NCBI GenBank assembly: GCA_030640585.1
Contig: DAOWIZ010000018.1
Location: forward strand, 1 to 48,068
Direction: 5' to 3'
Source of the DNA: Thermoplasmata archaeon
GTDB taxonomy: Archaea; Thermoplasmatota; E2; DHVEG-1
DNA: 48,068 nucleotides
A program made the position numbers and the translations under genes. Under the pieces are notes generated by a model. The model made no database searches and was not told the DNA's origin. It saw nothing but the letters and a program-made list of their open reading frames with translations. Positions 10,826 to 28,386 of the stretch are shown here, piece by piece. Numbering within the stretch: the first letter of the stretch is position 1; each line of letters opens with the position of its first letter.

Positions 10826-11083
10826 ATGTTAGACCTAATTCTTGTCATCTTTTTCTGTATTATGGGTGTTATAACAGGTATTGCAACAGGCTTATTACCC
10901 GGCCTTCATGTAAATAACATAGCACTCATTCTACTATCTTTATCTGGTGCGATAATTGGGGTGTTTAGTTTTCTTTTTGAATATGGGATCTCTGAACAAT
11001 TCATTCTGTTATTGATTTGTGTTTATATCATATCCGTGTCAATCTCTCACACATTCCATGATGTAATCCCAACTACTTTCCTC
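10826..11083 (+). pseudogene. TctA-like permease, N-terminal part, split by transposon
   Basis: First 86 codons of a TctA-family membrane protein (COG1784, archaeal tripartite-tricarboxylate-transporter-like). The N-terminal GVITGIATGLLPGLHVNNIALI and SHTFHDVIPTTFL are hallmarks of the family. Coding stops two codons into the inserted element (CAG then TAG). The remaining 360 codons continue in the same frame at 30101 (GAPNEDTALSVLPAH). Joining 11083 to 30101 rebuilds a 446-aa protein without any frame correction, so the break is recent and due only to the insertion. The truncated product is unlikely to function. Confidence 0.93.
11079..11083 (+). repeat. Left copy of 5-bp target site duplication
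   Basis: TCCTC, the last bases of the Phe-Leu codons of the left half of the permease. It is repeated at 30096-30100. Confidence 0.9.
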
Positions 11084-11096
11084 CAGTAGTTCCGAA
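11084..11096 (+). repeat. Left terminal inverted repeat of the 19-kb element
   Basis: CAGTAGTTCCGAA, a perfect reverse complement of 30083-30095. Confidence 0.93.
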
Positions 11097-11182
11097 TGTA
11101 TATTTTAAAGTTATGTTTTTTGATAATTTTGACAAACTTGATAAAAACAGAACTGTATTTTTTAATTAAAATCAATAAAAAA

Positions 11183-11232
11183 TTGTTGGTTAGAGTGCTT
11201 TTGACTGGCATTTTTGTCTTATGCACCAACAA
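11183..11232 (-). terminator. Hairpin with T-run downstream of the transposase
   Basis: TTGTTGGT (11183-11190) pairs with ACCAACAA (11225-11232). Read on the minus strand, the hairpin is followed by a run of T, in the 209-nt non-coding left end after the transposase stop. It is probably a transcription terminator for the transposase, or it may shield it from host transcription. Apart from this hairpin and the terminal repeat I see nothing in this gap. Confidence 0.4.
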
Positions 11233-11293
11233 TAAATATGATGCAGACTAAGGGATTTAAGAATTTCTATTAAGAACTGAATCGCAGGTCATG

Positions 11294-12907
11294 TTAACCA
11301 CCTGGATCAATCACAATCAACAACGTGCCAAAATACTTGGCAGTAATAATATGTCCATCGCCTACTTTACCATGAAGATGCAACCATATCAAAACATCAG
11401 CGAGTATCCATAAGTTATATAATAACACTGAGAATAAGAAATAGAACAAACGGATATGATAATTCTTAGAAGTGGTTTTAGCACGAAAACTATGCTTTTT
11501 AACACGATAACTGGTTTCAATACCCCAGCGTTTGCTATACAATAAAAATAACCGTTCAAGCAGGTCAACATCATTATTCTCAAAATGCATATTGGTCGAA
11601 AACACTCGTTTTTCACCTGTTTTGTCCTTAGCAACGATTAGATTAAAACTACAGGTTTTCATCCTGAAGCCAGTAATGACAGACGGCGCAGGAGAAAGTT
11701 CCATAGCACGCCTTATCGCATAGTTTCTCTGACCAGGCATCAGCCATTTCAACCCGAAACCATTCAACACACCAATAGACTTCGAGTCAAAGAACCCTCG
11801 GTCAAGATAAACATGGTTGATCTTAATCCGTTTTTTAGCATAATAAACAAGCCTTGTAAACAGGTCTTCCTTGGTGCTTAGAGCATTAACGGGCAAAGCA
11901 AGAAGTGTAAACCGTTTACCATTATCTACAATATTCAATGTGATAAACTTATAGCATCTATCAGTGCCCCGCTCAGGCATTTTACCAACGACCATCAGTG
12001 TCTTTCTATTTCCATAGTAGAACCATTCTGTATAATCAATGGCAACATCGACACGTTTGCGAACATCAAACATATTAGCCTGGCGAGCCATCTCCCAGAC
12101 AATTTCAAACAAAGTCTCATACATGCGCTGCATATCTTTAATATTATCATATTTCTTCAAATGATACAACAGAGTATCTGCGTCAGGGCAACGTTTACGG
12201 TATTCCTTGTAAATCTTACTTCCGCTCTCTGCGAAATTCTGATTTAAGCCCAGATGTATCAAGAGGTCAATAAACATTTTCTTGTTGTAGATGCAGTTTT
12301 TACCAAGATTCAAATCTATAAAAGGAGTAAAACGCTTTTTAAACAAACGGCAAACATCTTTTGTCTGTATGTTTCTCTGAAGTCTCTGGTTGCGCTCTTT
12401 CGTGTCTTTCTTTGGTTTTTCAGGTTCTAAGGTTTTAATATCAAACAAAATCCCAAACTTCTCAGAAACCTCAATTATTTTATCAACTGTAAAATCAAGA
12501 AGTCTTTTTGTTTCTTCATCGAGAATATGATTAATAAAATAACTAACAGTTGTCTGGTCAGGAGTTACACTAAAGCCTAGTTTGTATTTATCGCCAGGGC
12601 GTCTTTTCAAATATCTGACAAGTTTTGTTTGAAACTTAATTCCTTTTAGTTTCTGGTATAAAACAAGATTAATCATAGATGTATAATCATATTTTATTTT
12701 ACGATATGTTTTTTCCTGAAAAATTGATGTATCAAAACTTTGGAGGTATTCGGCAACGGTCACTTTAGGTTGCTTTTTGAATAGCTCAAAGGTTTTATAA
12801 ATCTCCAGTTCTATGTTTCTTCTGGAGACACGCATTCTGCTTTGGCTCATGTGTTGTCTCCAGACCCCTTGAGAAGGACCAATTCTCTTGGGGTCATCCT
12901 TTTTCAA
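11294..12907 (-). CDS. DDE transposase, IS4-like (YREK signature)
   Basis: A 537-aa transposase that probably mobilises the whole 19-kb element. The catalytic triad is visible: D291 in VAIDYTEWFYYG, D369 in HVYLDRGFFD and E464 in the YREK signature (Y457-x2-R460-x3-E464-x6-K471, within YSKRWGIETSYRVKK). The C-terminal RLFYFLFSVLLYNLW is typical of IS4-group enzymes. It appears intact, with no frameshift. The N-terminal 270 residues are basic and probably bind DNA. It lies at the left end and reads toward that end. A 9-bp inverted repeat (TTTCAAACT, 12902-12910; AGTTTGAAA, 12932-12940) straddles its start and could affect its expression. The exact IS family needs a database comparison. Confidence 0.88.
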   Translation of the reverse strand: MKKDDPKRIGPSQGVWRQHMSQSRMRVSRRNIELEIYKTFELFKKQPKVTVAEYLQSFDTSIFQEKTYRKIKYDYTSMINLVLYQKLKGIKFQTKLVRYLKRRPGDKYKLGFSVTPDQTTVSYFINHILDEETKRLLDFTVDKIIEVSEKFGILFDIKTLEPEKPKKDTKERNQRLQRNIQTKDVCRLFKKRFTPFIDLNLGKNCIYNKKMFIDLLIHLGLNQNFAESGSKIYKEYRKRCPDADTLLYHLKKYDNIKDMQRMYETLFEIVWEMARQANMFDVRKRVDVAIDYTEWFYYGNRKTLMVVGKMPERGTDRCYKFITLNIVDNGKRFTLLALPVNALSTKEDLFTRLVYYAKKRIKINHVYLDRGFFDSKSIGVLNGFGLKWLMPGQRNYAIRRAMELSPAPSVITGFRMKTCSFNLIVAKDKTGEKRVFSTNMHFENNDVDLLERLFLLYSKRWGIETSYRVKKHSFRAKTTSKNYHIRLFYFLFSVLLYNLWILADVLIWLHLHGKVGDGHIITAKYFGTLLIVIDPGG

Positions 12908-12980
12908 ACTTTGATTGTATTTTTCTAAAGTAGTTTGAAAATAAGGTTTAGATATGTTTCTGGAGTCATAGAGTTATACC

Positions 12981-12997
12981 ACCCCCAAAGTGGGGGT
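12981..12997. repeat. Short GC-rich hairpin between transposase and cargo
   Basis: ACCCCCA and TGGGGGT form a 7-bp stem with an AAG loop, followed by TTTT, in the gap between the divergent transposase and AbrB-like genes. It could end transcription or be a remnant of an element end. Confidence 0.35.
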
Positions 12998-13058
12998 TTT
13001 GGAATGAAAGTATCTTTTTTATTTCTTTCCCAAATCAACTGCATTTATCGCTACCTTA

Positions 13059-13139
13059 TTTCCTACCTATTTAACTACATCTACAATCTCATATATAAAC
13101 TTTTAGGTAGGAAAATTAAAAGTGTTAAGGGTAGTTAAA
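13059..13139. promoter_or_regulatory. Nested inverted repeats, probable operator of the R-M operon
   Basis: Two inverted repeats interleave: TTTCCTACCTA (13059-13069) with TAGGTAGGAAA (13104-13114), and TTTAACTAC (13070-13078) with GTAGTTAAA (13131-13139). TATA-like sequence (CATATATAAAC, 13090-13100) lies between the first pair of arms, and another (TTATATAATT, about 13152-13161) lies after it, near the AbrB-like start. This is the layout expected for autoregulation by a dimeric AbrB-type protein. Confidence 0.55.
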
Positions 13140-13188
13140 AAAGCAGTAAAAGTTATATAATTAAACTGCCATTTAACAATTGATATAT

Positions 13189-13368
13189 ATGGGATTTAAA
13201 ACCACAATTGCTAAAGCTTCTACCATCTCAAATTCCTTTAGAACAACAGTACCAGCTGCAATAATAAACCAGTTCAATTTAAACGATGGGGATAAACTAG
13301 ATTGGGAACTAAAAGCAGAAAATGGTAACTTAATTGTAATTATAAAACCTGAGAAGAAGGAGATGTAG
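13189..13368 (+). CDS. AbrB/SpoVT-type regulator of the R-M system
   Basis: A 59-aa swapped-hairpin DNA-binding protein. TISNSFRTTVPAAIINQFNL followed by GDKLDWELKAENGNLIVIIKP is the standard AbrB/MazE-type pattern (strand, RxTVP, GDxLxW, strand). The ATG at 13189 fits the family better than the TTG nine bases upstream. It ends 7 nt before the methyltransferase start, so both are on one transcript. By analogy with controller proteins of other restriction-modification systems it may time expression of methylase and nuclease, and the inverted repeats upstream are its likely target. An antitoxin role is the alternative, but no toxin gene is adjacent. Confidence 0.8.
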   Translation: MGFKTTIAKASTISNSFRTTVPAAIINQFNLNDGDKLDWELKAENGNLIVIIKPEKKEM

Positions 13369-13375
13369 TGAAAGC

Positions 13376-14995
13376 ATGCTATTGGTAGAACAAAAGAAGA
13401 GATTACAATTGAATAAGGTTACATTTAGACAATATCTTGCATTAGTATTTATAATTACTGAACTAAGGGAGGAATTTCGCTGTCCATCCCCTGACGAAAT
13501 TAAAAAAGAAATTCGGTTTTCAACAGATCGATTACTTAACACTACACTAAAAGCCTTGGAAAAAAAAGGATTTTTAATTTTTAATGGACTTGATAAAAAT
13601 CCGATAGTTGAATTAACCGAAGAAACTAAAAAGATAGAAGCAAATCTCATTGATAAATTATTTTTAATCGAAGAATACACACCCTATACTGAAATTAAAA
13701 AACAAATCAAAATCGTCGACACCCCAAAAAACTTTCTTAATCTATTAATAGAAACAAAAATCATTCCTGGGGGCAATATCATCTCACTTATTAATCAAAA
13801 AACCATCGTAAATAGATGGTATGGACTACTCGAAGAATTTCCACCAAGCCTTGTTTGGAACAAACTCAAAGAATACAATATAAAATCAGAACATACAGTT
13901 CTTGATCCTTGCCTTGGAAGTGGAACAACAATTACAACAGCAAGATTATACGGAACCAAAACAGTTGGTATCGATATAAATCCAACATCAACTTTTGTAT
14001 CCACAGTTAAAACAACATGGAATGTAGACCTAAAAGAGTTAAAAGAAGAGATAAATTCTATTTTAAATGAATACCAGACAGCATGTCCAATTCTCGATAA
14101 CATCAGAACAACAACCGAAGCATTAGAATGTATGACTTGGATGGAAAAACATCAATGGCTTAAACCAAGAAACCAAAATGATGTTGCATTTATCAAGGAA
14201 AGAATTAAAGAGATAAGAAATAATAAAATAAAGAATATCTTCCTGCTTGCCTTAATAGAAGCAGCAGTTGAAGCATCAAATGCCTCATTTTGTCCAGGGA
14301 CATCTTTTTACCCATTTAGGAAAAAACCAGAGTTTGGATATTGTTTCGAAAACAAACTTAGAATGATATATGAAGATCTTTTTTTAATTAAAAAAAGTGA
14401 TTTAAAGCCAAAGCCAACACAGATCTACAATAAAGATATGAGAGAAATGGCCGATTATATTGAACCAAACAGCATTGATTTTTTACTTACATCTCCACCA
14501 TATCCAAATGATTTGGAATATACAAGACAAACACGTCTTGATTTATTTCTGTTAGATTATGTTAAAAACATGGGGGATGTAAAAGAGATCAAGAAGCAAA
14601 TGATCAAAGGGAGTACTAAGCTGATTTTTAATGAAAGTAACAGCGCTCAATATATCCAAAAATTCCCGATAATAATGAACGTTGTCTATAGATTAGCAGA
14701 AAAGTTTAAAGATAAAAATTGGGGGTGGGACTATCCACGGATGATCCAGGAATACTTCGGAGACATATATTTGGCCTTAGAAGCTACTCAGAAGGTAATG
14801 AAAGACAATAGATATGCACTCTATGTTGTTGGAGACCAATCATACAAAGGGGTTCTAATACCTGTTGGCAGAGCGATGATTGATATTGCAAAAGATCTCA
14901 ACTATAAGAATGCAAAACTCGAAGAAGTAAGAATCAGAAGAAGCACACTTCATACTATGCCTTTAATAGAAGAAATTGTCATACTTCAAAAATAA
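13376..14995 (+). CDS. DNA methyltransferase (N4-cytosine/N6-adenine type) of a restriction-modification system
   Basis: A 539-aa amino-methyltransferase. The SAM-binding motif I is VLDPCLGSGTT (about 175-185), followed by GTKTVGIDINPTS. The catalytic motif IV is LLTSPPYPNDLEYTRQ (about 371-386). Motif I precedes IV, and the TSPPY form is common in N4-cytosine enzymes. The first 100 residues look like an extra winged-helix or recognition region, with further recognition sequence between motifs. An AGGAG lies about 12 nt before the ATG. It is co-transcribed with the AbrB-like gene, and it ends 3 nt from the end of the convergent endonuclease gene. That gives a compact type II R-M cassette in which the methylase protects the host sites. 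Confidence 0.88.
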   Translation: MLLVEQKKRLQLNKVTFRQYLALVFIITELREEFRCPSPDEIKKEIRFSTDRLLNTTLKALEKKGFLIFNGLDKNPIVELTEETKKIEANLIDKLFLIEEYTPYTEIKKQIKIVDTPKNFLNLLIETKIIPGGNIISLINQKTIVNRWYGLLEEFPPSLVWNKLKEYNIKSEHTVLDPCLGSGTTITTARLYGTKTVGIDINPTSTFVSTVKTTWNVDLKELKEEINSILNEYQTACPILDNIRTTTEALECMTWMEKHQWLKPRNQNDVAFIKERIKEIRNNKIKNIFLLALIEAAVEASNASFCPGTSFYPFRKKPEFGYCFENKLRMIYEDLFLIKKSDLKPKPTQIYNKDMREMADYIEPNSIDFLLTSPPYPNDLEYTRQTRLDLFLLDYVKNMGDVKEIKKQMIKGSTKLIFNESNSAQYIQKFPIIMNVVYRLAEKFKDKNWGWDYPRMIQEYFGDIYLALEATQKVMKDNRYALYVVGDQSYKGVLIPVGRAMIDIAKDLNYKNAKLEEVRIRRSTLHTMPLIEEIVILQK

Positions 14996-14998
14996 AAA

Positions 14999-15922
14999 CT
15001 ACACTCTTATTGTAAATCGATTGTTGATACATTGTCGGATTTTATCACGTAATAAATCTAACGTAATGTCATGTTGTTTACCTGTTATAGACTTTTGAAT
15101 GTCCTCTGGTGTTGTGACATAATATTTATCAGTAGATAAATTGAATTTATCCTGATTTTGATTATATACTAATTTAACAGTTAAAAAATAAAAAAACTTA
15201 TCCTTGGGTAGAGGAAGATTTGTCACATCCTGTAATGGAAAAGCAAAAGTCCTTCTAAAAAAAGCAAATAAATAATCTTGTAAAATCCAAATTGATGGAA
15301 CACGAATCTCTTCGAATAGATACCCTTTATCAATCATCTGTAAAGAAGACCCTTTAACTGATGCTTTAGAGTTCAATCCATATCCATAATTTTTACTAGT
15401 GACATTAATTCCATGGTAGGAATCTCGAATACATTCGACAATGCCCCTTGTGCCTGTAGTACTATCAGATTGATACTCAATATGCGCTACTCTTCCTATC
15501 CTTTCAAAACCATCCTGATCAATTATTTCACCTATCAAACCATCGGCAGTTCCAAATGGACGAATGCCAACCTCTCCTGTAACAACTATATTATTACCAT
15601 CAAAAAATTGCTGTTTTATCGAATTGAAAATAGTATTATCTTCAAAGAACCTATAGGGGCAAATAATTACTGGATATGGAACATCACTCCAACTTGGATT
15701 ATGCCAAGCTGTACATGCGCCTGTTTGGTGTGTTAGTAGCCGATTCCCTTCATCATCAGTTAAATTCGAAATTTTGTTATCTGGATCGCAAGGGCGGTTA
15801 TCAGACATGAATGGACAGATGTGGGTTCTTCTGTAACTCTGGGGTTTTTCAGATGTGTTTGTTGGTGGATAGCCAAAAATTTCTGCAACATATTTATTAT
15901 GTTTATTATCTGATGAAGCCAT
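14999..15922 (-). CDS. NotI-like type II restriction endonuclease
   Basis: A 307-aa protein that I assign to the NotI-like family. Four cysteines are placed as in its metal-binding N-terminal domain: C36 (HICPF), C45 (RPCDP), C70 (GACTAW) and C88 (IICPYRF). A PD-(D/E)XK-like site follows: E117 (VTGEVG), D127 (GTADGL) and E149-x-Q151 (AHIEYQSD). The E-x-Q ending, instead of E-x-K, is known in this family. It is convergent with the methyltransferase. The frame is closed directly before the ATG (TAAATG), and the only strong SD (GGAGG, 15955-15959) lies 33 nt away, serving an overlapping out-of-frame start at 15948. The target site cannot be read from the sequence; NotI-like enzymes tend to have long GC-rich sites. 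Confidence 0.72.
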   Translation of the reverse strand: MASSDNKHNKYVAEIFGYPPTNTSEKPQSYRRTHICPFMSDNRPCDPDNKISNLTDDEGNRLLTHQTGACTAWHNPSWSDVPYPVIICPYRFFEDNTIFNSIKQQFFDGNNIVVTGEVGIRPFGTADGLIGEIIDQDGFERIGRVAHIEYQSDSTTGTRGIVECIRDSYHGINVTSKNYGYGLNSKASVKGSSLQMIDKGYLFEEIRVPSIWILQDYLFAFFRRTFAFPLQDVTNLPLPKDKFFYFLTVKLVYNQNQDKFNLSTDKYYVTTPEDIQKSITGKQHDITLDLLRDKIRQCINNRFTIRV

Positions 15923-16015
15923 TTAAATAACAAATCAATAAGATGCATAAAAAACCTCCGTAAAAAAAAATTATATGAAGTGGGAGGACAATATAAAAAA
16001 TTGGTGTGTAAATTT

Positions 16016-16987
16016 TTACACATTTTTCGTATCATCATATTCGTCATCTAAATTTTCTTCTTTTGAGGAATTGTATGTGAAAAAATCAGTTAAACTTGAT
16101 TGTTTTTTATCTTTTTCTTGTTCTATTGCCTCAAAAAAGTTTGAGGTTAATGCTTTAGATCCAGAAATTGAAGAATGACTTAATTTTGTATACTTTATCG
16201 TAAATGCAAATTGTTCAAGTGATACATTTTCGAACCATCCAACATGTCTTCCAATATTAACTGCTTCAGTCCATTTTTTTTCATTAATTATTCCATATGG
16301 TCTTAATATTTCTCCAAGCTTTTCTTTATTTATCTCAATTCCGTTTTTGTCTTCTCCATAATATTTTTCAATAGCTCGTAAAACAATAAATTGTAATAAA
16401 TAAATTGGATGGCAACTATTTTTTAATATTCTAAATGCCCCGATACCTTTTGATAACAATGGAACATTAATTTTTGGAAAAGATTTACTAAATTTTCCCC
16501 CAGCGCAACTAAAGAATTTTTGAGATTTTGGATAATACCAAAGAGTGAGACCCAACTTTTTCCCTAGTTTAGAACTAATATCTTTTTTACAAACATTAAA
16601 AACTTCTAAAGCAGTAGAACGATGATTCTGAGGGGACACAAGAAAGACATCAACATAAGGTATAAAGTCAGTTCCAGTTAGTAATTTAAGACTTTGAGGA
16701 GATATATTAGCATAAGCTAACAATTGATCTTTCTTGTTCGTCGGGTCACTTGTTTCTTCAATTAAAAGTACTGCATCTTTATTTTTAGAAACATATACTA
16801 AATCTGCTTCGAAAATATCTTTTTTTAATTTTATATCTTTATTTGTATGAAGTTCTACTTCATTTCCATAATATTTATAGATATTTTTATAGTTTTCAAA
16901 AATAGCTGAATCTATTTTTTCAATAAGACGATGTCTTTCAAGGTAGCCAAAATAATTTCTTTTACTACGTTCATCAATTTTTACCAA
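16016..16987 (-). CDS. Unknown protein with nuclease-like N-terminus, first gene pair partner
   Basis: A 323-aa protein of no family I can name. Residues 57-80 (KDIFEADLVYVSKNKDAVLL then IEETSD) have the shape of a PD-(D/E)XK core: an acidic residue on one strand (D62) and a glutamate ending the next (E77), although the usual lysine is replaced by Thr. VDVFLVSPQNHRSTALEVF further on resembles the strand-helix part of that fold. The C-terminal 50 residues are charged and probably disordered. It lies 3 nt after the next gene on the same strand, so the two form an operon. No signal peptide or membrane segment is present. A defence role is inferred only from the surroundings. Confidence 0.6.
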   Translation of the reverse strand: MVKIDERSKRNYFGYLERHRLIEKIDSAIFENYKNIYKYYGNEVELHTNKDIKLKKDIFEADLVYVSKNKDAVLLIEETSDPTNKKDQLLAYANISPQSLKLLTGTDFIPYVDVFLVSPQNHRSTALEVFNVCKKDISSKLGKKLGLTLWYYPKSQKFFSCAGGKFSKSFPKINVPLLSKGIGAFRILKNSCHPIYLLQFIVLRAIEKYYGEDKNGIEINKEKLGEILRPYGIINEKKWTEAVNIGRHVGWFENVSLEQFAFTIKYTKLSHSSISGSKALTSNFFEAIEQEKDKKQSSLTDFFTYNSSKEENLDDEYDDTKNV

Positions 16988-16990
16988 CTA

Positions 16991-18010
16991 TTACTCACCA
17001 ATGGTAATTTTTTGGAAGTCAATATCAGGATCAATGTAGGAAGCCATTCGAGAAACTAATCTTCTAATTGCAGATCTAGCTTCTGATGGATTTTCAGAAT
17101 AAATAAATAATTCATCGTCATTAATAGTCAGTTGTAATGATTTCCTTTCTCTCAGATCTAAAATATTGGCTCTATCTGGCCCCAAAGGAATGCCTATGTA
17201 TCCATGTGCCCCTCCAGATGATGTGAACATATTAAGTATTGCTTCATTACGTTTTTCTATCGTTCCTTTAATTTTTTTTATTGAAGGCATTTTAATTTTT
17301 ACAATATCTTCAATTTGACGATAAGATACACCATCAATCACTGTTTTATGTGATTGTGAGAACCCATATGATTCATCCCATTTTCTTAAAAAACTAACAT
17401 ACTTACCTGTAATGAAAATAATTGATTTTGATAAACCACTACTAAATGAAATTCTCCCTTGATTTGTCATTTCAAATTTGATAAGATCTCCATCATTCCC
17501 CATTTCAATTCCGATTTTACGTGGATGGAGCGCATGCTGTTTTTCAAGCCGATTTATCACTTCTTTTGTTTTTCTTCCTCGTACTTGGACAGTAATTCCA
17601 TATCCTGAATATTCATTATGTGGTTGGAACTGGGTTCTTTCAATAACAATTTTCCCTCCGTCTTTAACAAAGATGCGTGTCAATTCATAAAATCGTTCTT
17701 TATTTAACCAAGGGATTCGAAGAGTAGGATGTTGTCGAAGGAATTGTTCAATTTTTCTTGTTCCATCTTCATCCTGTGTATGATAAACTACAACTCCCCA
17801 GTCCCATTCATCAAAATAAAATTCAAAATCCTTGGTTGAATAATAAAATTCTTTTTCTCCCTTAGTTTCAACTGGCTTTCGTTTTTCTTTCTCAAATATC
17901 GAATGATTTGGACTAAAAAAGGCAATATATACTTTGAGATTTTTCGCTCTTGCACCTTTTTCCCAATCAACTGATTTACTCAGTAATTCTTTTAGGTGCT
18001 CTGTTTTCAT
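16991..18010 (-). CDS. Unknown protein, partner of the 16016-16987 gene
   Basis: A 339-aa soluble protein, not recognised. I chose the ATG at 18010 (MKTEHLKELL) because a GAGGT lies 8 nt upstream; the longer frame to 18094 runs into the operator repeats. It is rich in beta-strand-like segments and ends in a helical region (EARSAIRRLVSRMASYID). A GYIGIPLGPDRANI stretch near residue 265 is notable, but I cannot link it to a known site. It is the promoter-proximal gene of a two-gene operon whose second member may be a nuclease. The operon is divergent from a ribbon-helix-helix gene across a repeat-rich gap. Confidence 0.6.
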   Translation of the reverse strand: MKTEHLKELLSKSVDWEKGARAKNLKVYIAFFSPNHSIFEKEKRKPVETKGEKEFYYSTKDFEFYFDEWDWGVVVYHTQDEDGTRKIEQFLRQHPTLRIPWLNKERFYELTRIFVKDGGKIVIERTQFQPHNEYSGYGITVQVRGRKTKEVINRLEKQHALHPRKIGIEMGNDGDLIKFEMTNQGRISFSSGLSKSIIFITGKYVSFLRKWDESYGFSQSHKTVIDGVSYRQIEDIVKIKMPSIKKIKGTIEKRNEAILNMFTSSGGAHGYIGIPLGPDRANILDLRERKSLQLTINDDELFIYSENPSEARSAIRRLVSRMASYIDPDIDFQKITIGE

Positions 18011-18087
18011 CAAAGAAACCTCTTTTTGAAATATGTAATCTGAGCGGCCAGTATAACTTTTTCTATGCATAAAATCAACTTCTTTAT

Positions 18088-18178
18088 TATACAAGTAATA
18101 CTACTTAAATTTTACTTGTATATTACTTGATATACAAAAAATTTAGCAATATACAAATAGCTTATATTTGATATACAA
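18088..18178. promoter_or_regulatory. Operator-like repeats between divergent genes
   Basis: TATACAAGTAA (18088-18098) is the exact reverse complement of TTACTTGTATA (18112-18122), followed at once by a variant TTACTTGATATA (18123-18134). TTGATATACAA occurs at 18127-18137 and again at 18168-18178. Such clustered short repeats are typical binding sites for ribbon-helix-helix proteins, and one is encoded directly downstream at 18204. Confidence 0.55.
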
Positions 18179-18203
18179 TTGATGTGAGGAGAATAGCATA
18201 ACT

Positions 18204-18395
18204 ATGCCAAAAAAATCATCTAGTGTAAAAACAAAACCCGTACCAATAAGATTATCAGAACCCATGATTGAAGCAATTGACTTTGCAATAGAACTTGGCC
18301 AAGGCAATGATAGAAACGATGTCATCCGAACAGCTATTGCTAATTATTTAAGAGAGTTAAACGTGACAAATGAAATGAAAAAAAGAAAAGTTTAG
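18204..18395 (+). CDS. Ribbon-helix-helix (CopG-like) DNA-binding protein
   Basis: A 63-aa basic protein. KPVPIRLSEPMIEAIDFAIE followed by GNDRNDVIRTAIANYLRE is the strand-helix-helix pattern of RHH repressors. GAGGAG lies upstream at 18186-18191. It is divergent from the unknown two-gene operon, with repeats in between that it probably binds, so it is the likely repressor of that operon and of itself. Its end overlaps the end of the DUF2779 gene by 4 nt on the opposite strand. It could also be an antitoxin, but I see no partner toxin. Confidence 0.75.
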   Translation: MPKKSSSVKTKPVPIRLSEPMIEAIDFAIELGQGNDRNDVIRTAIANYLRELNVTNEMKKRKV

Positions 18396-19837
18396 TTTGC
18401 AATCGTATATAATTTTTCATGTAATTTTACCATTGCAATTGTATCTTGTTTACAATATTTTAATAGATTTTGTTTATGCTTTTCTATTTCTTTTTTATCA
18501 TACTTTTTTAACATCATATATGCAAAAATTGCACTTGCTGTTAACCCATCAGAAATATCAAATCCGTCATAAGAAAATTCTGGAATTAAAACGGGACAAG
18601 TTACTTTTACTGAAGTTTTACCATGAAATTCTGGATTGTAATAATTATTTCTAATTATTGCCTCTAAATCAACTAATCTTTCTAAAATCACGTCAAAATC
18701 TTTTTTTAGATCTAGATATAGACCTTTAAGATAGTTAATAATCCTTTTCTCAAAACTACTATAGACAATAATACTTCCTGCTTCTTCTAAATCCAATATT
18801 AACTTTTTTGCGAGGTCTTCCCTGTAATCTCCATCAGGATTTGATAAAAATTCAAAATGGTCAACTATATGCCCAGGTTTTGAACATTTATGAATTGAAT
18901 ATTGTGTTGGAATTTGTTCATAAGGCTTTGTGTCGGGTAGTAATGGCAAAGCTGTCTGATAAGTTTCAAAATCTAAATAAAAAGATGGCCATATTATTTT
19001 ATCTAAATCTTTTTTTAGATTTTTATCTATATGTTGTGTATTATTTTTTACGCAGTCCTTCACTAAATTCTGTTTTGCAGATAATGAAAAACCATCAGGA
19101 ATGTCTTCAATAAATGTAACTCCCGACTGTAATAAAGTATTAAATTTTGTTTTTCCTAACCGAGGAATGTCAAAAAGATGATTTTTATATTTTTTCCCTA
19201 TACAGTCATTGAATATTTTACAATATTTACATTCATATCTGAGAGATGAAGTAGGTTTTTCATCAGTACTGGTAATATTATCTATTTGATCCCATAACCG
19301 ATCAAATTCTTTTACTTTTTCAATAACATCATCTGTATGATCAATTTCTCTAAAAAGATCTTTATCATCCATGCCCAGACGATAATCAGGAGAAATTAAA
19401 AATAAAGATATTTTTGATATATCAAATCCTGATTTATTCATTACCATTGTTGTATATGCCATATCATCAATATATTCATCTTTATCATTCATACCAGATT
19501 TTACTTCGATCATTTTCCATTTGTTATCTATTAACTCTAATATATCTGCTTTAGCTGCATAATTATCAACTAAAAAGGCGCTTTCAAAAAGAGTTGGCAT
19601 TATTCTCTTGTTTAACATATCACTTGTTTTTTTTGCATTTTCTTCAAAATTAGGTGCATATATAATCGCTCCATTTGGATAAAGATTTTGAGCTTTTTTC
19701 CCAATAGTCCTACCTTGCTCCATTAGAAATCTATCAGAGATAGTTAATGGTTTGGTAAATCCCTTGTTTCTTATAATCCATCCCAATGTTGGACAATTTA
19801 TTGCATTTAGAAATACTGTTTTATTAACATTATTCAA
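18392..19837 (-). CDS. DUF2779 protein: RecB/Cas4-like nuclease fused to DEDD exonuclease fold
   Basis: A 481-aa protein using the TTG at 19837, which follows GGAGGGAAGAA; the 23 extra residues of the longer frame lack family character. The N-terminal domain has a PD-(D/E)XK site, D98 (AKADILEL) with E111-x-K113 (MIEVKSG), and four cysteines arranged as in Fe-S Cas4/AddB nucleases: C15 and C203/C206/C212 (CKYCKIFNDC). The C-terminal DUF2779 domain starts near FYLDFETYQTALP (D288, E290) and carries a DEDD-type exonuclease pattern, ending in KYCKQDTIAMVKLHEKL. The function is unproven; the architecture indicates DNA or RNA processing. It is divergent from a DnaQ-like exonuclease gene. Confidence 0.78.
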   Translation of the reverse strand: MNNVNKTVFLNAINCPTLGWIIRNKGFTKPLTISDRFLMEQGRTIGKKAQNLYPNGAIIYAPNFEENAKKTSDMLNKRIMPTLFESAFLVDNYAAKADILELIDNKWKMIEVKSGMNDKDEYIDDMAYTTMVMNKSGFDISKISLFLISPDYRLGMDDKDLFREIDHTDDVIEKVKEFDRLWDQIDNITSTDEKPTSSLRYECKYCKIFNDCIGKKYKNHLFDIPRLGKTKFNTLLQSGVTFIEDIPDGFSLSAKQNLVKDCVKNNTQHIDKNLKKDLDKIIWPSFYLDFETYQTALPLLPDTKPYEQIPTQYSIHKCSKPGHIVDHFEFLSNPDGDYREDLAKKLILDLEEAGSIIVYSSFEKRIINYLKGLYLDLKKDFDVILERLVDLEAIIRNNYYNPEFHGKTSVKVTCPVLIPEFSYDGFDISDGLTASAIFAYMMLKKYDKKEIEKHKQNLLKYCKQDTIAMVKLHEKLYTIAN

Positions 19838-19920
19838 TTTTTCTTCCCTCCATTCATATATGTAAATAAAAGATGCTTTTAAATAACATTTTAAGATATG
19901 AAACATGGAGTTTTTTAATT

Positions 19921-20493
19921 ATGGGTAAAAAAGTATTTTGGTTAGATGTAGAAACTACGGGTTTAGATCCTGAACAGCAAGATATTATCCAACTTGCTTT
20001 TTTAATAGAAATCGATGGCGAAATCGCTGAAAGCCAAAATATGTTAATGCAACCTTTTAATTATAATGAAGTGCAACAAGACGCTCTTGATGTTCATGGT
20101 AGAACCATTGAAGAAATAAAAACATATCCTGATCCTCGTAAAACATATACTGATTTAATTTCTGTCCTTGAAAAATATGTAGATAGATATAATCCTTCAG
20201 ATAAGTTTCATCCAGCTGGCTATAATGCCAGATTTGACATGGATTTTTTAAGACAGTTCTTTATTAAAAATGGAGACGTTTATTATGGATCTTGGTTTAA
20301 TTATAAAGCAATTGACCCGATGTCTTTATTACACATACTTGATGGAATTGGAAGTGTTTCAATAGAGAATTATAAACTAGAAACTGTATGTAAACACTTT
20401 GATATATGTCATGATGCTCATGATGCATTAAGTGATATAACTGCAACAAGAGAACTTACAAAACTTATTTGTTCAAAATATATTAAAGGTTGA
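19921..20493 (+). CDS. DnaQ-like DEDDh 3'-5' exonuclease
   Basis: A 190-aa protein starting at the ATG at 19921. Exo I is WLDVETTGLD (D9, E11), Exo II is HPAGYNARFDMDFLRQF, and Exo III is CHDAHDALSDITATREL (H then D, DEDDh type). DALDVHGRT (residues 55-63) matches the IHGI-like element of DnaQ proteins. It acts as a stand-alone 3'-5' exonuclease on DNA or RNA ends, since no polymerase domain is present. It shares a divergent promoter region with the DUF2779 gene, so two exonuclease folds are encoded back to back. This could be a repair or anti-invader pair, which is inference. Confidence 0.85.
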   Translation: MGKKVFWLDVETTGLDPEQQDIIQLAFLIEIDGEIAESQNMLMQPFNYNEVQQDALDVHGRTIEEIKTYPDPRKTYTDLISVLEKYVDRYNPSDKFHPAGYNARFDMDFLRQFFIKNGDVYYGSWFNYKAIDPMSLLHILDGIGSVSIENYKLETVCKHFDICHDAHDALSDITATRELTKLICSKYIKG

Positions 20494-20514
20494 ATTTAGT
20501 ATTGTTTTGCATTA

Positions 20515-22350
20515 TTAAAAATCGTAGAGAGAGTCAACATAGAATTTATGATGAAACGAAGAAATATTTTTAGATAAAAAAGCTAAATAATTAGAATAAT
20601 ATTTTTCGATATACTCGCAATACATTTTTCCCTCAGGCGCAATCTCGAATTGATAGTAGGTATGATTTCTTTGATTAAAATAATCTAAAAGACTATGCCT
20701 CTTTTCAGGATCATAATCACGAATTGATCTTGATTTTTCTTCAATTGAAATTTTTAGCAATCCAATAGAACCGAGCTTCATTATGTCTTCAAATAATTCA
20801 GGAGAATATAGAAAGTCAAAATCCATATTAAATTTATAAGCAAAGGAGTTTTGATAATTTTTCTGAACCCACTCTATCATCTCATAAATCTTTGTAATAA
20901 ATATCATAGGCACCTGAAAGTCCCCATGTACTCTCAAATATTCATAAAAAAACAATAGCAGCAATTCGAGTTGATATGATTTTTTAATTCTTTCTTTATC
21001 TATTTTTTTTCCTATAATGTTTTTTATATCACACCAATTTTTCTTAATTAACTTATTGCATGATTTTATATTATTATCTTTTTGGCAGAAAAAATATAGA
21101 GAGCCGCTACCCAATATTTCCATAGTGAGACTAGCCGCTAGCTTAGATTCATCATATAAAAAACGATGTGTGTCGCATATTTTAACTCGTAGGGATTTCG
21201 GTATCCCCCGCAATGCCGTACTTCCTATGTAGATTCTTTGTTTTTGAATTATTTTATTTACTTCTTTCTCGACATCGCTAATTATTGAAGGATTTTGGTT
21301 TAACAATTCTATGTACAATTTAATGTCTGGAGTTATAGCATGGGCTTTCAAATCGCATGTGCAACAAAAAACTCCTCCCCCTCGCAATTCATCTATTAAT
21401 TTTTTAGCTTCGTTAGTACCTTTATTTTTGATAAAATTTAGCAAATCATTATCGTCATATTCCCAAAAGAATTTATCCAGTTCTTGTTCTACTTCCTTTT
21501 TACTACTTGTGTCTAAAAGTTTTTTAAGCGTATATTCTAAAGCTTTTATTAGCATTATATTAGCAGCTACATTTTTTGGATGATTTATTATATTTGAATA
21601 ATAATGATACCTAGATATTAGAAAAGCTTCTCCAAGATTTATAGAAACTATTTCATCAAAAGATCTGTTTTCACCTTTTTTACCAATAACTAATTTATCC
21701 TTATCTCTTGATACATTTTCCAATATATGTTCCAAATTAAAACCAATAAAATTAATTCCAGTATGTAAACCATCACGAATAAGATAATCTATTCTATCTG
21801 CATCAATTTCTCCAGATATTATGCTGGATAGAAATTTATCTTCTTCGCTTAAACTCTTTTTCTTACCTGTTGCAATATTACCAATATTCGTAAAAAAAGA
21901 ATTTGATTTTTCGGTTATCCCTGCCTCTTTCAAAGCTTCTTTCACAACTGATTTATTACCCAGATTTGCAATTATGTTTCTCGTATACGCTTCATGCTTC
22001 CTGTATCGAGGTTGCGCTATTTTCTCCATTCTTTTAAGCCCAAGCTCTATGGTATGAGAAAAGGCAGAATGTCCTATATCATGCAATAGGCCAGCTAAGC
22101 GAATCTTTTGTCGATGCGTTTCATTAAATTCATTTTTAAACCTTTCAAAAATCAAATCAGCTATATGCATAGTACCTAATGAATGCTCAAATCTTGTATG
22201 CAATGCTCCTGGAAAAACAACGCTGGCAACGCCCAACTGTTTTATTCTTTTTAATCTTTGAAACTGTGGTAAATCTATCAATGTTTTTTCTAGCTTTGTT
22301 AATCTGATATACTTGTGTACGGGGTCAGGTATAGATGAGTCTAATTCCAT
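20515..22350 (-). CDS. HD-domain phosphohydrolase (dNTPase/SAMHD1-like)
   Basis: A 611-aa protein. The N-terminal HD domain has the dGTPase/COG1078 pattern: FPGALHTRFEHSLGTMHIA (H56 as first metal ligand), GLLHDIGHSAFSHTIE (H90-D91) and DADRIDYLIRDG (distal D). The family hydrolyses dNTPs to nucleoside and triphosphate, and members act in antiviral dNTP depletion or nucleotide balance. The C-terminal 300 residues are family-variable, alpha-helical and Lys/Asn/Tyr-rich, and I do not recognise them. It is a single gene, with a 160-nt AT-rich gap before the next + strand gene. Its location inside a mobile element favours a defence role. Confidence 0.82.
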   Translation of the reverse strand: MELDSSIPDPVHKYIRLTKLEKTLIDLPQFQRLKRIKQLGVASVVFPGALHTRFEHSLGTMHIADLIFERFKNEFNETHRQKIRLAGLLHDIGHSAFSHTIELGLKRMEKIAQPRYRKHEAYTRNIIANLGNKSVVKEALKEAGITEKSNSFFTNIGNIATGKKKSLSEEDKFLSSIISGEIDADRIDYLIRDGLHTGINFIGFNLEHILENVSRDKDKLVIGKKGENRSFDEIVSINLGEAFLISRYHYYSNIINHPKNVAANIMLIKALEYTLKKLLDTSSKKEVEQELDKFFWEYDDNDLLNFIKNKGTNEAKKLIDELRGGGVFCCTCDLKAHAITPDIKLYIELLNQNPSIISDVEKEVNKIIQKQRIYIGSTALRGIPKSLRVKICDTHRFLYDESKLAASLTMEILGSGSLYFFCQKDNNIKSCNKLIKKNWCDIKNIIGKKIDKERIKKSYQLELLLLFFYEYLRVHGDFQVPMIFITKIYEMIEWVQKNYQNSFAYKFNMDFDFLYSPELFEDIMKLGSIGLLKISIEEKSRSIRDYDPEKRHSLLDYFNQRNHTYYQFEIAPEGKMYCEYIEKYYSNYLAFLSKNISSFHHKFYVDSLYDF

Positions 22351-22421
22351 AAATAAACAAATCTAATAAATTGATATAACTATATCGATAGTTGTCTTTT
22401 TTACTCTCCCCACCAAAACCC

Positions 22422-22448
22422 AGGGTTGTTTTTTTAAAGAAACAAAAG
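22422..22448 (+). promoter_or_regulatory. Shared upstream element, copy 1
   Basis: AGGGTTG, a T-run, then TTTAAAGAAACAA, directly before a TATA-like TTTATAAAC (22450-22458) and 66 nt from the start of the RAMA gene. Nearly the same sequence occurs at 23437-23461 and 24830-24854. Confidence 0.6.
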
Positions 22449-22513
22449 ATTTATAAACTCTAATACTATTGCCCTCTACAATGTTAAGAAATAAAGAATA
22501 AAAGAGGAATAAG

Positions 22514-22942
22514 ATGACTAAAATAATAAGAATATCAGATGAAGTATGGAACGTATTGCGGGATATGGGGAAGACAGGAGACTCGTTTGATGATGTACTA
22601 AGAAAAATATTAAAGGTTGAATCTGAGAATCAAAAAGGCCAAGACCTTACATGTAGAGGTGGCAGAATCCCGCATGGAACAAAAGTAACAGCTACATATA
22701 ACAGAGAGAGATATGAAGCTGAAATTAAAAATGGTAAATTTCGATATAATGGTAAAGCATACAATGGACCATCTCCAGCAGCTATGAGCATTACAAATAG
22801 CTCAGTTAATGGATGGTCATTTTGGGGAATAGAAAAAGAAGGAAAATGGAAACCACTAGTACATTTCAGAAAACATGTTTTTAACCAAAAAAATAAAAGT
22901 AATTCATGGAAAAAATATAAGAGAGATAATGCCAAAATTTAA
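22514..22942 (+). CDS. RHH-like plus RAMA-domain protein
   Basis: A 142-aa basic protein. Residues 1-37 (TKIIRISDEVWNVLRDMG, then GDSFDDVLRKIL) look like a ribbon-helix-helix or VapB-type module. Residues 44-105 match the RAMA / DUF2924-like pattern: PHGTKVTATYNRERYEAEI, FRYNGKAYNGPSPAAM and NGWSFWGIE. RAMA domains are linked to restriction enzymes and DNA methylases and are thought to read DNA modification. AGAGGAATAAG before the ATG is a good SD. Transcription probably depends on the repeated element at 22422. It might be a reader or regulator for the element's R-M system; that link is inferred. Confidence 0.7.
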   Translation: MTKIIRISDEVWNVLRDMGKTGDSFDDVLRKILKVESENQKGQDLTCRGGRIPHGTKVTATYNRERYEAEIKNGKFRYNGKAYNGPSPAAMSITNSSVNGWSFWGIEKEGKWKPLVHFRKHVFNQKNKSNSWKKYKRDNAKI

Positions 22943-22992
22943 AGAATATCTTGAATTAAAATTAAAAAAATAATTACTGTTTAAAATCTTGT

Positions 22993-23013
22993 TTTTCATC
23001 ATCTTTTTATCCT
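22993..23013 (+). repeat. Direct repeat at gene ends, copy 1
   Basis: TTTTCATCATCTTTTTATCC (22993-23012) is almost identical to 24277-24296. It follows the RAMA gene by 50 nt and overlaps the stop of the convergent zinc-finger gene. The T-rich core could be a terminator. Confidence 0.4.
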
Positions 23014-23387
23014 ATAGTTTTCAATTCTTTATTGGCTTGAAAATTCCTCCTATCTAAACAACTTGTGCAATGAAGTTTAGAACGTGAATAATCAATAGGG
23101 TTTTTACCGCATTGCCTACAAAGCCCTTTAGCCACCCTTCTCTTTTCGTATATTTTGTTCATTTTCTCTCTTTTTTTCAGGCAGGCAGGACAATAGCGAG
23201 TCCATCCCTCAGGTCTTGGTTTGCCACAGTCATAGCAAAGACCTGCCTTCAGCCGTCTCCTATGCCATTCTCTGTGGTATTTTCTTTCACAGTCTTTGCA
23301 GTAACTTGACAACTTGTCTTTTTTCGAGTTATCATTATAAAACTGCGGTGCAGGCAGAAATCGATGACATCTAAAGCATTCCTTCAT
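23007..23387 (-). CDS. Multi-zinc-finger protein (HNH-associated type)
   Basis: A 126-aa Cys/Lys/Arg-rich protein with six C-x2-C pairs: CFRC, CKDC, CYDC, CPAC, CRQC and CTSC, giving probably three zinc sites. The first unit (CFRCHRFLPAPQFYND, then YCKDC) is the same module as in the 24378-24815 protein. Such units occur in phage-type proteins next to HNH nucleases, but the HNH catalytic residues are not evident here, so it may only bind nucleic acid. No partner gene is on the same strand. Confidence 0.6.
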   Translation of the reverse strand: MKECFRCHRFLPAPQFYNDNSKKDKLSSYCKDCERKYHREWHRRRLKAGLCYDCGKPRPEGWTRYCPACLKKREKMNKIYEKRRVAKGLCRQCGKNPIDYSRSKLHCTSCLDRRNFQANKELKTIG

Positions 23388-23436
23388 TGAACAACACGCT
23401 TACTCTTATCTGTTGATATACTAATTAAAGTTTCTT

Positions 23437-23461
23437 AGGGTTGGTTTTTTAAAGGGACAAC
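23437..23461 (+). promoter_or_regulatory. Shared upstream element, copy 2
   Basis: AGGGTTGG, a T-run, then TTTAAAGGGACAAC, only 13 nt before the ATG at 23475. If TTTTTTAAAG is itself the TATA box, the transcript is leaderless. If TTTATTAAA further down is the TATA box, translation must begin at the ATGs at 23511/23514. Confidence 0.6.
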
Positions 23462-23474
23462 TATTGTTTATTAA

Positions 23475-23972
23475 ATGATTAAAATGTATAAAAAACAATC
23501 TTTTGAAGATATGATGACATCTGAAAAAGAGGTTGCAGATTACCTGTCTCATCTTGGTATCTTTTGGGAGTATGAACGACCTGTTTTTGTATATGATGAT
23601 AAAGGCAGGCCAAGAGTTTGGACTCCTGATTTTTATCTACCTCAATTAGGTATATATGTTGAGGTCTGCGGTTCTAAAAATTTCAATTATGAATATAGGG
23701 AAAAAGTGTACAAAAACAATGGTATTTTTACTGTATTTATCCACTGGTATAAAGATAAACACAAATGGAAGAAATTTCTTGGCAAAAGATTACAAGAAAT
23801 TGAAAAATATTGGAAAAATAAAGTAGATATGATTACTAATGCTATTTTAACAGAAAAAAAAGTAGAATATCAAAAAGTTGAAAAAGGCTCTTGCCCTTAT
23901 TGTGGTTGTGATGTTTATCTCGGAAGTGAAAATACTGCCAAAATGTGTGGTTTATGTGGGGAAATATGGTAA
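23475..23972 (+). CDS. Vsr-like PD-(D/E)XK nuclease with C-terminal zinc ribbon
   Basis: A 165-aa protein. VWTPDFYLPQLGIYVEVCG (about 48-66) is the Vsr/DUF559-like nuclease core: D52 in TPDFYL and E63 in YVEV. It follows a helix (SEKEVADYLSHLGIFWEYER) typical of small Vsr-type endonucleases. The C-terminus is a zinc ribbon (CPYCGC and CGLCG, about 139-163). Later in-frame ATGs at 23484, 23511 and 23514 are possible starts. The stop overlaps the next start by 7 nt, so translation of the two is coupled. Cleavage of mismatched or foreign DNA is the family precedent; the specific role is unknown. Confidence 0.72.
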   Translation: MIKMYKKQSFEDMMTSEKEVADYLSHLGIFWEYERPVFVYDDKGRPRVWTPDFYLPQLGIYVEVCGSKNFNYEYREKVYKNNGIFTVFIHWYKDKHKWKKFLGKRLQEIEKYWKNKVDMITNAILTEKKVEYQKVEKGSCPYCGCDVYLGSENTAKMCGLCGEIW

Positions 23973-24271
23973 AGAATGATATTGAAGAATTTATTTCAAA
24001 GTTTATTGGACAGGTTAAATCAGGTATACCAAAAGGTTGTGTGTTAAGTAGTAACTTTGATTTTGATCTTTCTGTTGTGACAACGAAAAAAAACAAAGGT
24101 AAATTAGACATACTCTTAGCAACTATGGAGCACACTTCCGATACAAAGCAAGTTCACAGATTAAAATTTTCAATCGCCGACAAAAAATCTCGTGAGGAAA
24201 GCACTCAATATTTAAATAAAGTGATACAAAATTTCGCATCAGAACTATCTAAATTAGATCAATCAAAATAA
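23966..24271 (+). CDS. Small protein resembling Trypco2 domain
   Basis: A 101-aa protein whose ATG (23966) overlaps the stop of the nuclease gene (ATGGTAA). It has an N-terminal helix (DIEEFISKFIGQVKSGIP), a strand FDFDLSVVTTKKNKGKLDIL and then VHRLKFSI. This order resembles the trypsin-co-occurring domain 2 (Trypco2), a small domain found in predicted conflict systems. The match is by eye and tentative. Coupling to a nuclease suggests an inhibitor, sensor or targeting subunit. The last 30 residues are helical and charged. Confidence 0.5.
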   Translation: MVKNDIEEFISKFIGQVKSGIPKGCVLSSNFDFDLSVVTTKKNKGKLDILLATMEHTSDTKQVHRLKFSIADKKSREESTQYLNKVIQNFASELSKLDQSK

Positions 24272-24276
24272 CCTCA

Positions 24277-24297
24277 TTTTCAACATCTTTTTATCCT
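24277..24297 (+). repeat. Direct repeat at gene ends, copy 2
   Basis: TTTTCAACATCTTTTTATCC (24277-24296) begins 6 nt after the stop of the Trypco2-like gene; compare 22993-23012. It may be a terminator. Confidence 0.4.
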
Positions 24298-24377
24298 CTT
24301 AATAAACCATTTCTACATGGGTAAAATATTTATCATAGGAGATATATAATAACATGTAGGTTTTAGACTCGATAAAT

Positions 24378-24815
24378 ATGACTAACGAATCAAAAATTGT
24401 AAACGGAATACAATACAAAAAATGCAGTAAATGTAAACAATTCAAACCACTACAACAGTTTTACAAAATAAAGCGTGGTACTTTTGGTGTAAAGAGTGAA
24501 TGCAAGAAATGTAGTATAATAAGATTTAATGACTGGATAGAAAATAACCGTTCTAAATATCTAAAAACAGGACGAATGTATGCTAGCAACAGATACAGAA
24601 ATGACCCCGTGCATAGGGAACGGGCAAAACAGATGAGTCGTGAATGGAGAAAAAACAACCCTGATTACCTAAGAAATTGGAAACTTAAAAACCCTGAACA
24701 GCAAAGAGAATGGGTAAAGGCCAATCCTGATTATCATAGAGAACGGCAGCGGATATTTAGAAAGGAAAACCCAGATTATTACAGAAATCTACGAGCAATG
24801 AAGCAGAAGGTGTGA
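24378..24815 (+). CDS. Zinc-finger protein with tandem NPDY repeats
   Basis: A 145-aa basic protein. Residues 14-50 form a zinc module (KCSKCKQFKPLQQFYK, then CKKC) shared with the 23007-23387 protein. The rest consists of short tandem units containing NPDYLRN, NPEQQREW, NPDYHRER and NPDYYRN, spaced about 14-18 residues and rich in Arg/Trp/Tyr. Such repeats occur in phage and mobile-element proteins near HNH nucleases and probably bind nucleic acid. No catalytic motif is evident. Confidence 0.6.
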   Translation: MTNESKIVNGIQYKKCSKCKQFKPLQQFYKIKRGTFGVKSECKKCSIIRFNDWIENNRSKYLKTGRMYASNRYRNDPVHRERAKQMSREWRKNNPDYLRNWKLKNPEQQREWVKANPDYHRERQRIFRKENPDYYRNLRAMKQKV

Positions 24816-24829
24816 GTTTGCCAACAGAT

Positions 24830-24854
24830 AGGGTTGATTTTTTAAAGAAACAAC
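24830..24854 (+). promoter_or_regulatory. Shared upstream element, copy 3
   Basis: AGGGTTGA, a T-run, then TTTAAAGAAACAAC, followed by TATA-like TTATAAAATA (24857-24866), before the small zinc-ribbon gene at 24887. Confidence 0.6.
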
Positions 24855-24886
24855 TGTTATAAAATATTATTTTAAGGTAGTAAAAG

Positions 24887-25039
24887 ATGAAAGAAGAATA
24901 TGCGGATAGACCATGTCCTGCTTGTGGGAATATGATTCCTGCAAAAAAGAAAGTTTGCCCATCATGTGAGCTTAGGGTTGGAAGAGTTAATAAAAATTCT
25001 AAAGCACCAGGTTCTTATAGGGGTTATATAAAAAAGTGA
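24887..25039 (+). CDS. Small zinc-ribbon protein (50 aa)
   Basis: A 50-aa protein with one zinc ribbon: CPACGNMIPAKKKVCPSCEL. The tail is basic and ends in YRGYIKK. Translation is supported by AAGG upstream, by the shared promoter-like element at 24830 and by the conserved C-x2-C spacing. Its role is unknown; it could be a small regulator or part of a larger complex. Its stop lies 2 nt from the end of the convergent nuclease-like gene. Confidence 0.6.
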   Translation: MKEEYADRPCPACGNMIPAKKKVCPSCELRVGRVNKNSKAPGSYRGYIKK

Positions 25040-25041
25040 AA

Positions 25042-26127: not shown

Positions 26128-26819
26128 TTTCTTTCCCCCAATTCTTCTTTAATAATTTTCCTAAGTTTCTTTTCAAAAACTTCAGCGAAGATTTCAGCTT
26201 TTTTACGCGTTTCAAACTCTAATTCTTCTTCATATAATTGTTGATATTTCTCAGTATTTTCTGGCTCTGTTTCTTCTTTATCATAAATTTGTAAAGTCTC
26301 TGGAAGTTTTTCAATATCATTAAAAATTTTTTCTATATTTATTTTAGGGCAATAGTCTATCTCTAAAGAATATCTATCCTTGATATAATCAATAATCTTA
26401 TTTTTATCTAATCGAAATTTATTATCTTCTTTTTTTTCTAAAAACCCTGCCAATGAATTTATTGTAAACCTGCTTGTATACATGTTATTAATTTCCTTAT
26501 TTATATCAAATAATCGATCAAGAGGCTCTTTACCTAACCATATATGCCTACAGACACCATTGCAGATTAATTTATAATCACAAAAGAAAACATCTTTAAA
26601 ATCTCTAATCGGCACTTCTTTTTCATCAACAAGAGACTTGCTTGCTTTCCAACGGCCTACAATATCTACAAGTCGTTCTAAATCCTTATTTACATCTTTG
26701 AAGTGAACAAAGTAAAAGCTGTTATCTATATAATATTCATGATCTTCAGCAATCTTAATCGCATCAGATAAACTTGGACTACTTGTTTTAGATGAAAATC
26801 TAATAATGAATTTTGACAT
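26124..26819 (-). CDS. Unknown protein, partner of the coiled-coil nuclease
   Basis: A 231-aa protein (ATG at 26819, MSKFIIRFSS) of no family I can name. It has a mixed alpha/beta N-terminus with an aromatic segment (HEYYIDNSFYFVHF), a cysteine pair around FCDYKLICNGVCRHIW that may bind metal, and an acidic coiled-coil-like C-terminus (EKYQQLYEEELEFETRKK onward). Its stop overlaps the nuclease start by 4 nt, so the two are made together, and it is probably a recognition or regulatory subunit. Confidence 0.55.
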   Translation of the reverse strand: MSKFIIRFSSKTSSPSLSDAIKIAEDHEYYIDNSFYFVHFKDVNKDLERLVDIVGRWKASKSLVDEKEVPIRDFKDVFFCDYKLICNGVCRHIWLGKEPLDRLFDINKEINNMYTSRFTINSLAGFLEKKEDNKFRLDKNKIIDYIKDRYSLEIDYCPKINIEKIFNDIEKLPETLQIYDKEETEPENTEKYQQLYEEELEFETRKKAEIFAEVFEKKLRKIIKEELGERK

Positions 26820-28385: not shown

Positions 28386-28386
28386 T

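Follow-up and report, generated by a model that had tools for sequence, protein, structure and literature searches.

Positions 11084–30095 of the window (the whole 48,068-nt stretch of DNA analysed here) very probably constitute a single transposon, 19,012 bp in length and with about 19 genes, which is moved by its own ISH3-like transposase and belongs to a family with exchangeable cargo whose members choose both their targets and their orientation. The ends, the target duplication, the empty site, the co-conservation of ends and transposase, the fixed spacing and orientation of insertions and their tandem stacking can all be read directly from the DNA.

Boundaries of the element

The element interrupts a TctA gene, and its limits are defined by the following features:

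11079–11083, left target-site duplication, TCCTC
30096–30100, right target-site duplication, TCCTC
11084–11100, plus strand, terminal inverted repeat (TIR) of the right end (RE, transposase side), CAGTAGTTCCGAATGTA, the same end being found in about 30 relatives
11101–11293, RE subterminal non-coding stretch, nearly constant in length in relatives (180–214 nt), with a common TTAGTxT motif
30062–30078, minus strand, LE subterminal motif AAAATCTACGAAGGAAT, which relatives also conserve at their far ends
30079–30095, minus strand, TIR of the left end (LE, far side), CAGTAGTTCCGAAGGTA
10826–11083, plus strand, 5' part of the target TctA gene (Pfam TctA positions 1–63)
30101–31183, plus strand, 3' part of the TctA gene (Pfam TctA)

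When the insert is removed and one TCCTC is kept, the two halves of TctA join as an intact frame of 446 aa. The 17-bp TIRs are complementary at 16 of 17 positions and start with C (CAGT), in agreement with the ends and the 5-bp duplication described in the sequence-only reading. By itself, a 16/17 inverted repeat is within chance expectation over 19 kb; the pair is considered real because it comes with a matched 5-bp duplication, a restored TctA frame and ends that are co-conserved with the transposase in relatives. Ranking inverted repeats alone was uninformative, since 603 weak pairs in the AT-rich region mask the real TIR. The 13-nt core CAGTAGTTCCGAA has exactly two perfect copies in the window and matches with three mismatches are at chance level (9 found vs. 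9.5 expected), which bears out the earlier statement that the inner side of the transposase gene has no further TIR. The stop codon of this gene is about 193 nt from the RE TIR, close to the 200 nt first estimated. The intervening subterminal stretch has no Rfam match, its conservation across relatives is limited to scattered motifs, and no known RNA gene was found in the window with Rfam.

The transposase

11294–12850, minus strand, ISH3-like DDE transposase (NF033541, E = 8.9e-44), probable start ATG at 12850, reading frame open to TTG at 12907
12863–12895, minus strand, leader hairpin before the transposase start, present in relatives with varying sequence

The open reading frame 11294–12907 on the minus strand is open and intact, as had been claimed, and the residues D291, D369, E464, Y457, R460 and K471, which include the proposed DDE and YREK positions, are invariant in a 9-member alignment with relatives 48–61% identical to the window transposase. 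Invariant in the same alignment are Y457, R460, E464 and R468, corresponding to the Y(2)R(3)E(3)R signature of ISH3. The NCBIfam ISH3 model matches with 149.8 bits, under its curated cut-off of 225, and the NCBIfam scan of the transposase gave no match to IS1634 models at E<=0.1. Judged from these matches and from the CAGT ends, the 5-bp duplication and the signature, which are ISH3 traits, the transposase is ISH3-like and not IS1634-like, and the earlier assignment to the latter group has to be given up. An AlphaFold model of low confidence (pLDDT 64.5), used for fold assignment alone, has the Tn5 transposase as its closest structure.

The coding start is more likely the ATG at 12850, giving 518 aa, because 12863–12895 corresponds to a leader hairpin found in relatives and homology begins near or after this hairpin. 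Most relatives examined have a GC-rich hairpin at a similar position 5' of the transposase start, with changing sequence (arms GCCAAGGG/CCCTTGGC and GCCTAAAGG/CCTTTAGGC, for example), which suggests a translational or read-through control of the transposase. A single transposase copy is present in the whole genome examined (an 81%-complete MAG), and a composite transposon with two flanking IS copies was ruled out on this basis.

Relatives, their ends and the conserved core

Relatives were found in 59 of the 145 related genomes searched, many of them full length at about 60% identity. Hosts are Candidatus Thermoplasmatota/Thermoplasmata MAGs (about 48–67% identity over long matches) and, at about 30–52%, Pacearchaeota, Nanohaloarchaeota, Aenigmarchaeota, Nanoarchaeota, Woesearchaeota, Methanolinea and Methanoperedens; the data are mostly MAG contigs. 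In about 30 relatives (48–67% identity; Thermoplasmatota and DPANN archaea), the end TACTTTCGGAACTACTG lies about 200 nt beyond the transposase stop codon, and none of them has a TIR copy on the 5' (inner) side of the gene. The 119 ends scanned fall into two types, an RE adjoining the transposase and an LE carrying a second motif, AAAATCTACGAAGGAAT or variants, directly after the TIR. The far end of the window element at 30095 is a typical LE, and the two window ends are taken as a genuine pair because the far end has the motif of the relatives' far ends. Since the TIR of relatives stands just past the transposase 3' end, with none 5' of it and a far end marked by the LE motif, one transposase probably moves the whole 19-kb unit, as first proposed, and not a short IS nested within it. 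A copy of the transposase with other TIRs lying immediately beyond its reading frame was searched for, and none was found.

Complete relatives measure 1.2–7.8 kb and have perfect 5-bp duplications:

L039, 7766 bp, duplication CCTCT
L043, 1374 bp, duplication AGCCA
L048, 3079 bp, duplication ACTAA
L055, 1199 bp, duplication TCGTT
L083, 6029 bp, duplication TGATT
L136 (DPANN), about 6.6 kb, duplication TAAAA
L162 (DPANN), about 7.7 kb, duplication TGAGT

An intact short element of about 1.9 kb, the existence of which the sequence-only reading had suggested checking, was not found; genome G026 has the only unit with a transposase that comes close to minimal size, a 2.06-kb derivative whose transposase is N-truncated and whose ends lack a matching duplication. 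About a dozen RE/LE junctions are back to back with exactly 5 nt between them, and in L039, L043 and L048 the identical 5 bp are reused, which fits repeated insertion at one target without immunity. Such pairs may also be circle junctions; in L039, however, CCTCT is also present between the outer copy and the promoter, which favours tandem insertion.

Target choice

In 43 of 50 RE flanks (23 of 29 when non-redundant), the best-scoring TATA octamer of the first 60 nt begins 13–17 nt out from the end, as found with a hand-set TATA matrix in a set that leaves out tandem and TctA cases. At the same distance from the LE, a TATA is found in 5 of 35 flanks (four or five LE ends face one), and shifting the same RE flanks by 100 or 200 nt reduces the count to 8/50 and 6/50, respectively. 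Counted directly in 80 genomes of the class, the end followed by 13–16 nt and TTTAWA has 28 matches, many of them overlapping the RE flank set, and a spacing of 33–36 nt gives 0. Extra loci beyond this set agree (L121, L124, L126, L131, L135, L137, L148 and L149). The genes behind the targeted promoters, named from their translated starts, are mostly housekeeping ones, such as thermosome, purH, CDC48 and aIF5A, and include the ribosomal-protein genes rpL3, rpL7Ae, rpS2, rpS3ae, rpS15 and rpS19e. As judged from these flanks, the preferred insertion is most often 15–17 bp upstream of the TATA box of a housekeeping gene, with the RE facing the gene. Nanoarchaeal L148 and L149 are upstream of an apparent 5S rRNA gene, and L124 faces an apparent RNase P RNA gene.

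Because the window copy lies in TctA instead of at a promoter, the rule on promoters is inferred from its relatives. Thirteen ends, that of the window included, are located at one TctA site across several species. Nearly all of them face the same way, L007 being the reverse, and the TATA signal is absent at all 13. The elements at this site split over two transposase clades. Three Nanoarchaeota copies (L142, L145, L146) face tRNA 3' ends, their variant ends CAGTAGAG(A/C)(C/G)AAAAGTGC lying a few bases away. A TGCACA-containing sequence is shared by the LE flanks at L074:2998, L102:1703 and L046:4684 and may mark another class of target, used by elements that have TctA-type HTH proteins.

The multi-HTH protein and a small, probable divergent regulator

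26949–27680, plus strand, multi-HTH protein, candidate target selector, with homologues in relatives
13189–13368, plus strand, small DNA-binding protein of MazE/AbrB type, encoded divergently from the transposase, probable regulator

Among the cargo genes of the window element, the multi-HTH gene is the one with counterparts in relatives, a weak HD-protein match being the sole exception. Homologues 55–67% identical are found at the TctA-site loci L086, L101 and L106 (two copies) and in L046, and homologues of about 19–27% identity in promoter-type elements, where their 3' end reaches or enters the LE. They adjoin the LE in about 30 elements, those of DPANN archaea included (immediately inside the LE in L136, L146, L152 and L162; also present in L142 and L149). 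Based on sequence comparison, the conserved core of the family consists of a transposase at the RE and a multi-HTH protein at or near the LE with variable cargo between them, and in most elements each of the two core genes points outward.

The HTH type tracks the target class in a few cases, L046 having a TctA-type HTH protein and no TctA flank; selection of the target class by this protein is a lead. The L146 protein matches Pfam TnsD with 33.6 bits (cut-off 32.4), the match being limited to the HTH region, and a structure search with the HTH protein gave no significant match, the Tc3 DNA-binding domain being among the best hits, all at E>=0.07. Several HTH repeats are present both in the L142 protein and in that of L146. 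The number of repeats was dropped as a predictor of the target, promoter-type members having one or two. At L101:2448-5252, directly 3' of a TctA-type HTH gene, a 934-aa open reading frame matches RNase_H_2 and IS66 transposase models and is possibly a nested element or a fusion.

Most relatives with enough upstream sequence have a small gene of DNA-binding type divergent from the transposase, and the families it belongs to are exchangeable (MazE/AbrB, zinc ribbon, RHH-like, wHTH-like).

Proposed mechanism

We propose that the ISH3-like DDE transposase pairs asymmetric ends, the RE beside its own gene and the LE 19 kb away, and that the whole unit would have been inserted through a 5-bp staggered cut. 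The family would pick target and orientation, most members inserting with the RE toward a gene on the upstream border of the TBP/TFB site, another set, to which the window copy belongs, entering one TctA site, and a Nanoarchaeota set going to tRNA 3' ends. TBP/TFB or the promoter DNA may attract the transposase, and the HTH protein may select the target class. In its most specific form the proposal is tentative: quite possibly, targets are found via the TBP/TFB complex, with the exchangeable multi-HTH protein redirecting the element to TctA or tRNA sites and cargo being spread mostly without gene breakage. Yeast Ty3 likewise targets via host transcription factors, those of Pol III.

That the transposase itself reads a TATA-like DNA motif, TBP/TFB and the HTH protein playing no part, is a somewhat doubtful explanation that nevertheless deserves weight: the TATA signal is a DNA signal, and a residue signature in the bacterial ISLre2/TnGBS transposases has been linked to promoter targeting (PMC3942029). 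Against it, the motif is missing in the TctA and tRNA classes and many targets are strong housekeeping promoters, as expected if it is occupied promoters that are targeted. It is unlikely that the spacing reflects survivorship, the sole tolerated insertions being those just upstream of promoters. Intergenic insertion does spare damage and LE flanks are often intergenic too, but selection does not readily explain a spacing about 3 nt wide, a fixed orientation (43/50 for the RE vs. 5/35 for the LE), tandem stacking on the same 5 bp or a direct genome count of 28 vs. 0.

Comparison with known elements

ISH3 elements, part of the IS4 superfamily, are single-gene ISs of 1225–1500 bp with CRGT ends, 4–5 bp duplications and the Y(2)R(3)E(3)R signature (PMC2266710). 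The window element shares with them transposase homology, CAGT ends, a 5-bp duplication, the signature and archaeal hosts; it differs in its 19 kb with cargo, second HTH gene, asymmetric ends and target choice, and its 19,012 bp lies outside the ISH3 size range, complete relatives spanning 1.2–7.8 kb. TnGBS/ISLre2 elements insert 15–17 bp upstream of sigma-A promoters with the right end toward the promoter (PMC3942029). Oriented insertion at this distance and large cargo units are features of the archaeal family as well, although not of the window copy in respect of the promoter, and the family appears to be a convergent counterpart of TnGBS/ISLre2. The TnGBS/p-MULT transposase is Mutator-like and unrelated to the archaeal DDE_Tnp_1/ISH3 transposase with its predicted Tn5-like fold, the signal is the bacterial sigma-A -35 box in one case and TATA in the other, and the HTH partner of the archaeal family has no counterpart described in the passages of PMC3942029 consulted. 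Site-preferring insertion in fixed orientation, cargo and a DNA-binding partner that could pick the target are shared with Tn7 and Tn7-like elements; however, tandem stacking suggests that the archaeal family has no target immunity, and no TnsA, TnsB or TnsC was found in Pfam/NCBIfam scans of the main element genes.

A 2019 survey of Thaumarchaeota reported composite DNA transposons with passenger genes as undetected in archaea (PMC6563490), and the open-access literature searched yielded no account of an archaeal transposon that targets promoters. The present family of large cargo-carrying archaeal transposons is widespread and apparently undescribed. It offers a compact, testable system for targeting through host transcription, parallel to bacterial TnGBS, and the end together with its TATA spacing provides a marker for finding such elements in MAGs.

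Cargo genes and the probable unity of the element

13376–14995, plus strand, type II DNA methyltransferase
14999–15922, minus strand, possible NotI-like restriction endonuclease (weak match, under cut-off)
18392–19906, minus strand, DUF2779/Cas4-like nuclease
19873–20493, plus strand, DnaQ-like exonuclease
20515–22350, minus strand, HD-domain phosphohydrolase, dGTPase-like
22514–22942, plus strand, RAMA/DUF2924 protein
23475–23972, plus strand, endonuclease/resolvase-like protein

By these annotations, the window cargo is mostly made of methylase, nuclease and other defence-type genes, and the family may serve to carry restriction and other defence genes between uncultured Thermoplasmatota and DPANN archaea. 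Cargo proteins without an assignment include those of 16016–18094 and 25042–26861. The element of G020, at the same TctA site, carries a methylase-Mrr fusion, HerA, a weak NurA and DruA, and other relatives a C5 methylase, N6/N4 methylases, an amino-acid permease with UbiA proteins and a peptidase C25. Beyond the HTH gene and the weak HD-protein match, no cargo homology between elements was found.

It is very improbable that the transposase belongs to a short IS that landed in an older 19-kb island moved by something else. The usual size of ISH3-family ISs (1.2–1.5 kb; PMC2266710) and the unrelated cargo would suit such a history, but in no relative does a TIR separate the transposase from the cargo, the outer TIRs being the transposase's own ends there, the LE motif fits the family and no other recombinase was identified among the element genes scanned (Pfam/NCBIfam). 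Still less credible is a reading of the unit as a casposon, a provirus or an integrative plasmid in which an IS4-type transposase is present by chance: with its archaeal host, TIRs, length in the 10–20 kb range and methylases and nucleases the element resembles casposons, and in size and content small proviruses, but Cas1, PolB, integrase, capsid and replication genes are absent from its Pfam/NCBIfam/PHROGs scans, and the 5-bp duplication and ends belong to the transposase family. A single transposon with exchangeable cargo stays the preferred reading. The 1374-bp unit L043:6599-7972, which has both ends and is flanked by a perfect AGCCA duplication, contains one gene, of the beta-lactamase family (PF00144), and forms a one-gene mobile cassette stacked between two other elements.
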